Below are positions 55,266 to 61,524 of a stretch of 64,000 nt of DNA, one piece after another. The notes under the pieces are model-generated. The model searched no databases. It was not told the origin of the DNA and saw only the letters and a program-made list of their open reading frames with translations. The stretch covers positions 310,001 through 374,000 of the forward strand of contig NZ_JALNPR010000001.1 in assembly GCF_023541015.1 (NCBI RefSeq), written 5' to 3'. Position 1 is the stretch's first letter; each line of letters begins with the position of its first letter. Source of the DNA: Marivivens donghaensis. GTDB lineage: Bacteria; Pseudomonadota; Alphaproteobacteria; Rhodobacterales; Rhodobacteraceae. The position numbers and the translations under genes were made by a program.

Positions 55266-55467
55266 GCAGCTCTCCTTGGCGTAGACCCCTTCCTGATCTT
55301 TTCGTCGTAAAAAATAAAGAGGGCAATCGGTCCTTGCGGCCCGATGTCGCAAAGGGCCTCTGAGGCGTGCCGAAAAAATCTGCGACGGAAAGTCCAAGCT
55401 GCCCCGTATTAAGGTCAACCCAGGCAGTTGAGGGCCTTGGGGAGAAACCTCGAAAAGGAATACCAAA

Positions 55468-56010
55468 ATGAAAACCAAACTTATCATTGCGGCAGTTGTT
55501 GCTGGTCTTGCTGCGACTTCTGTTTCGGCTGCAGGCTTTGGTCGTGGCGACGATGCCGGTCGAATGGGTGGCCGTATGATGCAGGCGCCGATGGATTTCG
55601 CATCGCTCGATACTGATGGTGACGGCGTGCTGACCTTGGAAGAACTGCAAGCGATGCCAGCCGCGAAGTTCGCCGAAGCGGATACCGATGGTTCTGGCAC
55701 CCTGAGCCAAGACGAAGTTGCCGCAATGGTCACCGCCCAGATGGAGCAGATGGCTGCGAACCGCGCCCAGATGATGATCGCAGAGCGTGACACAGATGGT
55801 GACGGCCTTCTTTCGGCGGAGGAGCTTCAGCCGAAAAACGGTCAGGGTCTGGCGATGATGTTCGCACGTCTCGACGCGGATGCGGATGGCACAGTGACGG
55901 CCGAAGAATTCCAAACCGCGCAGGCCCAGATGGCTCAGCGGATGCAGCGTGGTGGCGAAGGCCACGGTGATCACGAACGCGGTGGGTTCTTCGGTCGCCA
56001 AAGCCACTAA
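55468..56010 (+). CDS. Exported EF-hand calcium-binding protein
   Basis: 180 residues with a signal peptide (to about residue 21). Four EF-hand loops are visible: DTDGDGVLTLEE (48-59), DTDGSGTLSQDE (72-83), DTDGDGLLSAEE (108-119) and DADADGTVTAEE (136-147), then a His/Gly-rich tail. It probably binds Ca2+ in the periplasm. It precedes the ECF sigma gene by 82 bp on the same strand with a strong hairpin between, so it may belong to that sensing cassette. Confidence 0.88.
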   Translation: MKTKLIIAAVVAGLAATSVSAAGFGRGDDAGRMGGRMMQAPMDFASLDTDGDGVLTLEELQAMPAAKFAEADTDGSGTLSQDEVAAMVTAQMEQMAANRAQMMIAERDTDGDGLLSAEELQPKNGQGLAMMFARLDADADGTVTAEEFQTAQAQMAQRMQRGGEGHGDHERGGFFGRQSH

Positions 56011-56026
56011 TCGCTAGAATAGCTTC

Positions 56027-56051
56027 GTGGCCTGCCAAACAGGTGGGCCAC
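56027..56051 (+). other. Intercistronic hairpin between the EF-hand and sigma-factor genes
   Basis: 10-bp stem with two G-T pairs, GTGGCCTGCC (56027-56036) and GGTGGGCCAC (56042-56051), loop AAACA, without a T run. It could protect the upstream message or lower read-through into the sigma gene. Confidence 0.55.
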
Positions 56052-56092
56052 TGATTGCAGCACTCAAAAAGACCAGATACCCTTGACGGTTA

Positions 56093-56683
56093 ATGGATAT
56101 GGCCTTTGATCAATATGATGGCGCGCCAGACGGAGCGCTTTTGGTGGCTTTCGCCAATGGTGACCGCGCGGCGGCACGCCTGTTGGCGATCCGATTGACG
56201 CCCCGTGCCTTGGGGCAGGCATACCGCATGTTGACCGACCGTGCCGAGGCCGAGGACGTGGTCCAAGACGCGCTTATGCGTTTGTGGAAAATCGCACCAG
56301 AGTGGCGGCAGGGTGAGGCGCAGGTGTCTACTTGGCTCTACCGAGTTGTGGCAAACCTCTGCACTGACAGATTGCGGCGGCGCAAACGCAATGTCGGGAT
56401 CGATCAGATCGCAGAACCCGAGGACCCGACGCCCAGCGTCACGGACCGAATGCAAGATGATGCGCGCCAAAAGGCGCTGACGGATGCCTTGGCGTCCTTG
56501 CCTGACCGACAGGCGCAAGCGGTGGCTTTGCGTCACCTCGAAGGGCTTGGTAATCCTGAGATTGCCGAGATCATGGAAATAAGCGTTGAGGCCGTAGAGA
56601 GCCTGACGTCTCGTGGAAAACGCGCCCTTGCAGCGATACTCGCTGGGCGCAAAGCGGAATTGGGGTTTGATGATGACCGATAA
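56093..56683 (+). CDS. ECF-type RNA polymerase sigma factor
   Basis: 196 residues. Region 2 (about 28-95) includes RAEAEDVVQDALMRLWK and STWLYRVVANLCTDRLRRRK. Region 4 (about 130-185) includes LASLPDRQAQAVALRHLEGL and the HTH NPEIAEIMEISVEAVESLTSRGKRAL. It would direct polymerase to an envelope-response regulon. The downstream gene, overlapping its last codons, looks like its anti-sigma factor. Its stop codon lies inside that gene. Confidence 0.93.
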   Translation: MDMAFDQYDGAPDGALLVAFANGDRAAARLLAIRLTPRALGQAYRMLTDRAEAEDVVQDALMRLWKIAPEWRQGEAQVSTWLYRVVANLCTDRLRRRKRNVGIDQIAEPEDPTPSVTDRMQDDARQKALTDALASLPDRQAQAVALRHLEGLGNPEIAEIMEISVEAVESLTSRGKRALAAILAGRKAELGFDDDR

Positions 56684-57038
56684 ACGGACTGACCTGACCG
56701 ATCTTGAACTCGATGATCTGTTCGCCTCGGCGCGGACGGCTGACCCCGATCCGCACGATGATTTCATGGCGCGTCTCTTTGCCGACATTGACGACGTGGC
56801 CGATGGGTTTGAACAGGTCACTTTGCCGACAGAGGAACGCCGTTCGCTCTTGGCCTCGCTTTGGGCGGCGCTGGGCGGATGGGCTGGGGCCTCTGGTCTG
56901 GCGGCTGCGGCGGCGGCGGGCTTGTGGATCGGGATTTCCCTGCCAGCGAGCCTTAGCTCTGTGACAGATGTAATTTGGGCCGATAGCGTTGATGTATCGC
57001 TATTCGCCTCCGAAGATATTCTCGGATTGGAGGGTTAA
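56673..57038 (+). CDS. Putative membrane anti-sigma factor
   Basis: 121 residues from ATG 56673 (another ATG at 56670), overlapping the sigma gene by 11 nt. The acidic cytoplasmic N-part (LTDLELDDLFASARTADPDP, DDFMARLFADIDDVADGFE) is followed by one membrane helix (about 70-93, Ala/Gly-rich) and a short periplasmic tail. This matches CnrY-like anti-sigma factors in layout, though sequence identity to a named family is not evident. The function is inferred from position and topology. Confidence 0.75.
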   Translation: MTDKRTDLTDLELDDLFASARTADPDPHDDFMARLFADIDDVADGFEQVTLPTEERRSLLASLWAALGGWAGASGLAAAAAAGLWIGISLPASLSSVTDVIWADSVDVSLFASEDILGLEG

Positions 57039-57040
57039 CT

Positions 57041-57517
57041 ATGACCACCGATACACCAAAGAGCCGGATGCGTCCGGGTCTGCGGATCTTGCTGATCGCC
57101 TCGCTTGCGCTCAACGTGATGATCATCGGCGTCGTGGCTGGCGGCATTATGAAAGGCCGCGCGCCGGGGCCGTTCGGCGGGTTCGATATGACAATTGGGC
57201 CGTTCGCGAATGCTTTGGGCGATGACGACCGTCGTGCCATCCGTTCCGAACTACGCGGACGCCACGACATTCGTCCGCCCCGCTACGAGGACCGCATCGC
57301 CGCGATGGAGGGGTTCTTGGCGGCTGTTCGCGCCGACGACTTTGACCCTGCCGCGATTGAAACGATGTTTGCCGAACAGCGCGCCCGTGCCAGCAACGCG
57401 ATGGAGGCAGGTCAGCAGGCACTGCTCAATCGGATCACCGCGATGGATAGCGACGAACGAGCACGATTTGCGGATCGTTTAGAGCGCGAATTGAGACATG
57501 GCGGTGACCGCCGCTAG
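57041..57517 (+). CDS. Membrane-anchored periplasmic sensor, CnrX/ZraP-like (metal-resistance domain)
   Basis: 158 residues. An N-terminal membrane anchor (about 12-35, LRILLIASLALNVMIIGVVAGG) is followed by a periplasmic helical domain of the Metal_resist/CnrX type (FANALGDDDRRAIRSELRG, MFAEQRARASNAMEAGQQALLNRI). CnrX senses Ni/Co and releases CnrH through CnrY. Here few metal-ligand residues (two His) occur, so the signal may not be a metal. It lies 2 nt after the anti-sigma gene, and the stop makes CTAG with pleD. Confidence 0.82.
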   Translation: MTTDTPKSRMRPGLRILLIASLALNVMIIGVVAGGIMKGRAPGPFGGFDMTIGPFANALGDDDRRAIRSELRGRHDIRPPRYEDRIAAMEGFLAAVRADDFDPAAIETMFAEQRARASNAMEAGQQALLNRITAMDSDERARFADRLERELRHGGDRR

Positions 57518-60636: not shown

Positions 60637-61524
60637 CTATTCTTTGAGGCAGTCCGCAAGCACCGTCGCAATATCCAGCATGATCCCAGTGGAGCGGATC
60701 GGACCATCGGGGAGGGCCGCACCTTGGGGGTCGACCATCGCGACCTTGGCTCCTGTTCCCTCGGCCACGACCTGCGCCCATTTCGGAGAGGTTTGCGGGT
60801 CAACGAGGATACACGTCACGTCCAAATCCTGCATGATCTGGCGGAGTTCAATGATATGCGCAGCCCCTGGTGCAGAGGCATCGCTGATCGTGATCGCGCC
60901 CGCGGCAGGCATGTCGAAGGCCCGTTCGAAATAACCGAGCGCATCATGCGACACGACGAACTGACCGCCACGCACATCGGCGAGCACTTCCTCAACGGCG
61001 GATTGGGTGTCGATGATCGCCGTGGTCTGTGTGGCTGCATTAAACTGGTAGGTGGCTGCGTTGGAAGGGTCTAATTGGCCGAGCGTATTAGCCAGCGTCA
61101 TGACCCATGCGCTCTGCACATCAGGGGCGAGCCACGCGTGAGGATCAACGGCGCCATGGTCATGTTCATCGTGGTCATCGTCGTGGTGGTCGAGTTCAAT
61201 CGGAAGCCAACCTTCGGTGTCCAACAATTCAACGACCGTGGCGTCCTTGGCGAGTGTCTCAATCGGGTCCTCAAGGAAAGGGGTGAGGCCATGCCCGACC
61301 CAGACCACAACATCCGCATTTTCCAACGCAATCGCATCCGACGGGCGCATCGCGTAGTCATGCGGGCTAGCACCCGCAGGGAGCAGAACCTCGACCTCCG
61401 CCAGATCCCCCACGACGGCCTGAACCATCGACTGTATCGGCGCTGTATCCGTCACAATGCGAAGCGGCTCCGCCTGTAGGGATGTAGCGGCGAGGGTGAG
61501 TGCGGTAGCTAGACGAATCGACAT
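60637..61524 (-). CDS. znuA: Zinc-binding periplasmic protein ZnuA
   Basis: 295 residues with a signal peptide ending at LQA (18). It is a cluster A-I metal-binding protein, with GASPHDYAMRPSD (His ligand), a His/Asp-rich loop (HHDDDHDEHDHG, about 113-124), VDPHAWLAP (His) and FVVSHDALGYFERAF (His). It delivers Zn2+ to ZnuBC. Divergent from zur across 65 bp that contain a Zur-type operator. Confidence 0.95.
   Translation of the reverse strand: MSIRLATALTLAATSLQAEPLRIVTDTAPIQSMVQAVVGDLAEVEVLLPAGASPHDYAMRPSDAIALENADVVVWVGHGLTPFLEDPIETLAKDATVVELLDTEGWLPIELDHHDDDHDEHDHGAVDPHAWLAPDVQSAWVMTLANTLGQLDPSNAATYQFNAATQTTAIIDTQSAVEEVLADVRGGQFVVSHDALGYFERAFDMPAAGAITISDASAPGAAHIIELRQIMQDLDVTCILVDPQTSPKWAQVVAEGTGAKVAMVDPQGAALPDGPIRSTGIMLDIATVLADCLKE

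Follow-up and report, generated by a model that had tools for sequence, protein, structure and literature searches.

A conserved EF-hand protein, ECF sigma factor, anti-sigma factor and Spy/CnrX-superfamily gene unit in Rhodobacteraceae: a probable envelope-signalling system of the CaBP-SigV kind

Introduction

What does an exported EF-hand protein do beside an ECF sigma factor and the membrane partners of that sigma factor? In Marivivens donghaensis (Rhodobacteraceae), genes for an EF-hand protein, an ECF sigma factor, a one-helix anti-sigma factor and a membrane-anchored Metal_resist protein follow each other in this 5' to 3' order, all on the (+) strand of a stretch of 64,000 nucleotides that was analysed as a whole and is called the window here (NCBI RefSeq assembly GCF_023541015.1, contig NZ_JALNPR010000001.1, positions 310,001 to 374,000). 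A first-pass annotation, made from the letters alone, took the unit for a CnrHYX-like cassette with the EF-hand protein as its possible input. Little is understood of calcium signalling in the bacterial periplasm, and we found one paper in which an EF-hand protein is linked with the ECF sigma factor encoded next to it, and which leaves the membrane link open (PMC13171946). A search of openly licensed papers returned none on the present unit in Rhodobacteraceae. The locus offers a candidate for such a link, namely the anti-sigma factor together with the Spy-like protein, and it yields a sharp promoter motif and a short list of targets that are directly testable. The best explanation, to which we assign a probability of roughly 0.7, is that it encodes an envelope-signalling unit of the CaBP-SigV kind.

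The gene unit

Open reading frames, strands, coordinates and component identities are confirmed as the first-pass annotation had them (Table 1), including the overlap of the sigma and anti-sigma genes (14 nt, or 11 nt if the anti-sigma factor starts at its second ATG) and the 2-nt gap between the anti-sigma and Metal_resist genes. Family matches to PF00036, NF009176 and PF13801 back three of the four identities, and the anti-sigma factor is recognized by position and helix.

Table 1. Features of the unit in window coordinates
Feature	Position	Strand	Basis
ECF-type promoter of the EF-hand gene, CGACGGAA-N14-CGTATT	55383..55410	+	Fixed-spacing motif, matrix score
Exported protein with four EF-hand loops (CaBP-like)	55468..56010	+	PF00036/PF13202, 4 stretches
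Stem-loop between EF-hand and sigma genes (possible partial terminator, without U-tract)	56027..56051	+	Folding
Putative own promoter of the sigma operon, TTGCAG ... GATACC (low confidence)	56055..56081	+	TTG...TA pattern in relatives
ECF sigma factor (PRK12524 family, SigV-like by context)	56093..56683	+	NF009176, 300.7 bits
One-helix anti-sigma factor	56670..57038	+	Position, 14-nt overlap, single hydrophobic helix, conserved GGW and G.WIG
Membrane-anchored Metal_resist (Spy/CnrX-superfamily) protein, presumed sensor	57041..57517	+	PF13801, AlphaFold model

The EF-hand protein carries four EF-hand stretches (PF00036, 79.5 bits) behind what was judged by eye to be an N-terminal export signal. 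In all four loops, D at position 1, G at position 6 and E at position 12 are invariant across 20/20 aligned proteins, a set that excludes loci L037 and L042, and again in an alignment of 22 sequences. The protein is predicted to bind Ca2+. The NCBIfam names XopAW and lanmodulin were set aside, their scores being below cut-off and reflecting the EF loops only. The sigma factor exceeds the NF009176/PRK12524 cut-off of 264 bits (about 300 bits in the genome search as well), and in profile scores against the PDB it lies nearer SigW (95.8 bits), SigE and RpoE than CnrH (58.2 bits); in a Caulobacter control the PRK12524 model scores below its cut-off. The anti-sigma factor has no Pfam or NCBIfam match up to E 1. 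Its one hydrophobic helix was identified by eye, and the GGW and G.WIG motifs are conserved in the alignment.

A search of the window genome returned one PF13801 match and, at E 0.001, five proteins with sigma-70 region 2, whose open reading frames read as RpoD, two RpoH, an RpoE followed by a ChrR-like gene, and the ECF sigma factor of the locus. The RpoE is therefore the sole other ECF among the region-2 matches, a count that would overlook an ECF too divergent for the model. Near the unit, at window positions 60637-61524 on the (-) strand, lies a gene that by eye encodes a ZnuA-like binding protein with a His/Asp-rich loop.

Conservation

All close relatives examined share the arrangement, and it extends into further families of the class. 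The presumed sensor has a match in 26/41 genomes, including 23 of the 25 of the same family (window genome included), and in all 23 the EF-hand and sigma genes stand beside it in the same order. Among the 21 loci L028-L048, tblastn recovered the anti-sigma gene in all but L043 and L047 (19/21), and it did not find the gene in L052 either. Neighbouring genes recur in the same 21 loci (DUF983 in 19, NUDIX in 18, DUF3572 downstream in 18 and HAD in 16).

A search of public genomes with the sigma alignment gave 524 sigma relatives, and among the best 80 the EF-hand gene is present in 80, the anti-sigma gene (by profile) in 79 and the sensor gene in 80. These 80 are the closest sigma relatives, so that their figures do not measure a wider rate; judging by their titles, which nearly all carry 'Rhodobacteraceae bacterium' or what we take to be genera of that family, few come from elsewhere (e.g. 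L261 and L300). The first-pass annotation had staked its reading on the EF-hand gene being conserved with the other three, and both surveys found this to be so; recurrence in 23/23 same-family sensor-positive genomes and in the best 80 of 524 sigma loci rules out chance co-occurrence.

In a class survey of 192 genomes the sensor has a match in 77, 74 of them outside the family, and 40 of these 74 loci, mostly the higher-scoring ones, were read. The sigma gene adjoins the sensor gene in 40/40; an EF-hand gene stands upstream in 19/40 and downstream in one, with none upstream in 21/40.

The promoter of the EF-hand gene

Across relatives, the regions 5' of the EF-hand gene share a fixed motif, CGACGGAA-N14-CGTNT. 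In the form GACGGA-N15-CGT it occurs at fixed spacing in 21 of 22 loci, the window among them, and the twenty-second (L037) carries a weaker form of it. The 21 sites picked by this pattern gave a matrix whose background, at a score of at least 8, is 11 matches in 523,614 positions (32 minus the 21 training sites). At this threshold the promoter is found in 79 of the best 80 of 524 sigma loci, and in the sole miss, L302, the contig ends with only about 530 nt 5' of the sigma gene. On both strands of these 80 loci (1.35 Mb), CGACGGAA-N14-CGT occurs 74 times, a number equal to that of the EF-hand promoters that carry it. The core GGAA-N14-CGT is present in 76 of the 79 promoters. In other families the motif precedes the EF-hand gene in 13 of 19 loci and is absent from six.

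A common ECF promoter had been expected before both 55468 and 56093. The first expectation was borne out and the second was not, and because the ECF promoter was found only before the EF-hand gene, this gene is most likely a target, or output, of the neighbouring sigma factor. The proposal that the EF-hand protein serves as input thus gives way, and a role as input only is unsupported for a gene that carries an ECF promoter; an input by feedback may exist alongside, as proposed for CaBP in the available text on Caulobacter (PMC13171946). That the locus sigma factor itself recognizes the motif and drives the EF-hand gene seems to us highly probable. The cabp promoter of Caulobacter, mapped by 5'RACE, consists of a -35 GGAAA, 13 nt and a -10 CGTTCA, and has low activity without SigV, although the text as available holds no proof of direct SigV binding (PMC13171946).

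The EF-hand gene might instead be driven by another ECF, SigT/EcfG-like or ECF26-like, its place beside the sigma gene being only synteny. Both cabp and sigV are indeed also SigT-dependent according to the accessible text (PMC13171946), and some relatives of the window genome carry further ECFs that could share the motif. The window genome, however, shows in the region-2 search only the locus ECF and the ChrR-linked RpoE, and keeps the motif; moreover, in three other-family loci that have no upstream EF-hand gene (L358, L369 and L381) the motif lies immediately upstream of the sigma open reading frame or at its start. We regard control by another ECF as improbable.

The gap between the EF-hand and sigma genes

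None of the best 80 of 524 sigma loci has a copy of the ECF motif in the gap from the EF-hand stop codon to the sigma start (0/80), an absence with which read-through into the sigma gene from the promoter at 55383 is compatible. The gap of the window folds at -24.0 kcal/mol, and the 70 nt 3' of the EF-hand stop have a folding z below -2 (30 mononucleotide shuffles per locus) in 53 of these 80 loci. Within 55 nt before the sigma ATG, the pattern TTG-N19..22-TA[GT][CGA] occurs in 35 of the 80, against 1.4 expected from shuffles; the window's own TTGCAG ... GATACC fits it inexactly. Stem-loop and pattern together suggest a separate promoter, from which sigma factor, anti-sigma factor and sensor would probably be transcribed. 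A strict sigma-70 promoter scan of the window gave 0 promoter-like sites, and a terminator scan did not pick up the stem-loop, returning one terminator-like site on the other strand where 2.1 were expected.

Further motif sites and predicted targets

Exact motif copies total 80 in 37 family genomes taken together, against 18 for the reversed pattern. A sigma orthologue (above 150 bits; partial in G044) is present in 34 of the 37; the three genomes without one (G014, G045 and G051) hold 0, 0 and 1 exact sites, and three others (G024, G043 and G050) have the sigma factor and no exact motif. Relaxed forms of the motif show no enrichment over their reverse in the window genome (22 vs 18, and 26 vs 26 in a looser form), and relaxed sites there were counted as targets only if backed by relatives.

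Three further targets are predicted from their upstream sequences: an RND efflux operon, the gene of a DUF4405 membrane protein and that of a tiny membrane peptide. A relative of the RND adaptor is encoded in 23/25 family genomes, and in 18 of the 23 a motif scoring at least 8 lies within 350 nt upstream; the misses are G005 (6.5), G009, G012, G019 and G022. The set includes one distant and atypical member (G014) and two near-identical pairs (G000/G006 and G003/G004), and the count leaves out a weaker second match in G013 (L205, score -3.2) and the other-family loci L203 and L204. The RND permease of the window genome matches PF00873, a family that does not separate drug from metal pumps. DUF4405 relatives were found in 7/41 genomes, four of them at 32-37% identity, and the motif precedes the gene in 7/7; the RND site of the window genome departs from the strict pattern by one mismatch, as does its DUF4405 site. 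A hydrophobic open reading frame of 23-31 residues with an AGGAG-like site follows the motif in 7/7 genomes of the genus and in G012; five of these eight came from a scan (5/24 hydrolase loci), and G003, G004 and G012 were recognized by eye. None was seen beside the hydrolase gene in other family genomes. One such frame (MPTVYLL..., 23 aa) lies behind an exact motif copy at G000:C5:341147-341173 (L110, L177).

Other sites were noted and are not listed as targets. The exact motif precedes cytochrome b561-like genes in four genomes (L118, L127 and L145 by eye, L122 by Pfam), which were dropped because a second ECF relative, present in each of these genomes, may be what actually drives them. A site at G000:C4:109684, before a metallophosphoesterase-like gene, has its only counterpart in one close relative, L111, and we make no claim for it. 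Exact copies also stand before an rpoH-like gene (by eye) in G002 and G008 (L126, L136), before the gene of a second, different EF-hand protein in G009 and G011 (L137 by Pfam, L139 by eye), and, in two close relatives, upstream of a tRNA-like gene and a dCTP-deaminase-like gene (L114, L121).

The presumed sensor

The Metal_resist protein scores 59.1 bits against PF13801 (cut-off 29.2), and its AlphaFold model (pLDDT 83.9) has a helix at residues 12-37 followed by a helical domain. In a profile search against solved structures Spy came at E 7e-4, NccX at 0.24 and CpxP at 0.68, with unrelated chains at 0.05-0.2 in between; in Foldseek Spy came first (E 0.03), ahead of CpxP (0.08) and CnrX (0.4), with none below 0.001. 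Spy thus stands above CnrX and NccX in both searches, and the TM-scores are alike (0.39 for CnrX/NccX, 0.29-0.38 for Spy). With matches this weak and TM-scores this close, membership in the Spy/CnrX superfamily is supported and a choice within it is not.

The metal site of CnrX has histidine ligands. For the CnrYXH sensor, Met123 and an octahedral metal site are described in the available text of PMC7689651. The first-pass annotation had noted few metal ligands in the window protein, correctly so, as it has two histidines and no cysteine. Histidine is absent from 5/22 orthologues and numbers fewer than three in 16/22, and the periplasmic part has fewer than three in 51 of the best 80 of 524 public loci. 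As no His or Cys is invariant in the alignment and His is missing altogether from those five orthologues, a CnrX-type site is not a trait of this family, and a transition-metal stimulus is judged unlikely from the same residues.

These residues also weigh on the possibility of a true CnrYXH-type system, in which the sensor would bind Ni, Co, Cu or Zn, free the sigma factor and induce an efflux pump, the EF-hand protein being incidental. The same three component types are present, CnrX and NccX match the fold with TM-scores like those of Spy, an RND pump is a predicted target, and one methionine, M135, is nearly invariant. The scarcity of histidine, the higher rank of Spy and the recurrence of the EF-hand gene in 80, and of its promoter in 79, of the best 80 of 524 loci nevertheless make this very unlikely, and the permease family is one that drug and metal pumps share.

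The resemblance to Spy invites another explanation, a general envelope-stress system in which the Spy-like protein would sense unfolded protein or the state of the lipids. The EF-hand protein would stabilize the envelope in a Ca2+-dependent manner, Ca2+ having no signalling role. It would account for Spy being the best match in sequence and fold, with CpxP close, and for predicted targets that are envelope proteins (RND pump, DUF4405 protein and tiny membrane peptide). Those Spy matches are weak, however (E 7e-4 in the profile search and 0.03 at best in Foldseek), and the similar Caulobacter promoter is induced by EGTA, and also by acid, according to the accessible text (PMC13171946). We consider this explanation on balance unlikely.

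Proposed mechanism

On the preferred reading, a signalling unit of the CaBP-SigV kind in the envelope, the one-helix anti-sigma factor would keep the ECF sigma factor at the inner membrane, and the anchored Spy/CnrX-like protein would control this hold from the periplasm; we think these joint roles very likely. Disturbance of the periplasm would release the sigma factor. Calcium limitation or acid is suggested as the cue by analogy with Caulobacter, a suggestion to which we give slightly less than even odds. Freed sigma factor would then transcribe from CGACGGAA-N14-CGTNT promoters, its most conserved product being the neighbouring periplasmic EF-hand protein, which, binding Ca2+, would probably feed back on the pair of sensor and anti-sigma factor. 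For Caulobacter, too, CaBP feedback is proposed, and assays in the available text disagree on whether CaBP is needed for EGTA induction (PMC13171946).

A broader version is conceivable, in which the unit is a class-wide alphaproteobacterial loop of calcium homeostasis: a Spy-fold, non-metal sensor would read the calcium state of the EF-hand protein induced by its own sigma factor, the feedback loop so closed would also set the RND pump, the DUF4405 protein and the tiny peptide, and the anti-sigma/Spy-like pair would be the membrane link of Caulobacter. This generalization is speculative, and we think it rather doubtful.

Comparison with known systems

By its score the sigma factor is a member of NCBIfam PRK12524 (NF009176), a model without a stated function, to which partner genes and a promoter are added here. 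With the periplasmic proteins Spy, CpxP and ZraP the presumed sensor has the helical domain in common, Spy being its best, though weak, profile and fold match; it differs from them in being anchored in the membrane and encoded with a sigma/anti-sigma pair.

The resemblance to CnrYXH and NccYXH of Cupriavidus lies in an ECF sigma factor, a one-helix anti-sigma factor and an anchored PF13801 sensor that are encoded together, and in an RND pump as target, which is only predicted here. The gene order of CnrYXH is Y-X-H, and its sigma factor autoregulates its own operon. Here the order is sigma, anti-sigma, sensor; no metal site is conserved, an EF-hand partner is present, and no ECF promoter was found before the sigma gene. 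Of the CnrHYX-like cassette that the first-pass annotation had proposed, the three-component architecture thus survives, whereas gene order, metal site and sigma relatedness are not those of Cnr. Membership was rejected on the sensor ligands, on gene order and on a sigma factor nearer SigW than CnrH: lacking a conserved histidine site and having another gene order and, by the motif search, another promoter layout, the locus is not a CnrYXH member.

The closest parallel is cabp-sigV of Caulobacter vibrioides (CCNA_02838/CCNA_02837), described in 2026 as a periplasmic EF-hand protein and an ECF sigma factor (PMC13171946). In both, the gene of an exported multi-EF-hand protein lies directly 5' of an ECF gene on the same strand, and both have GGAA-N14-CGT with identical spacing, GGAAA-N13-CGTATT in the window and GGAAA-N13-CGTTCA before cabp. 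The differences, as far as the available text of that paper goes, are four EF-hands here and three in Caulobacter, a separate sigV promoter that lies inside cabp there, and a membrane component that is unknown there and for which an anti-sigma factor and a Spy-like protein are named here; targets beyond the EF-hand gene are also predicted here. Caulobacter has a PF13801 protein above cut-off, and by analogy the anti-sigma/Spy-like pair is a candidate for the link missing from its circuit. Likened to CaBP-SigV by layout and context, the Marivivens locus is a real, conserved variant of this recently described system.
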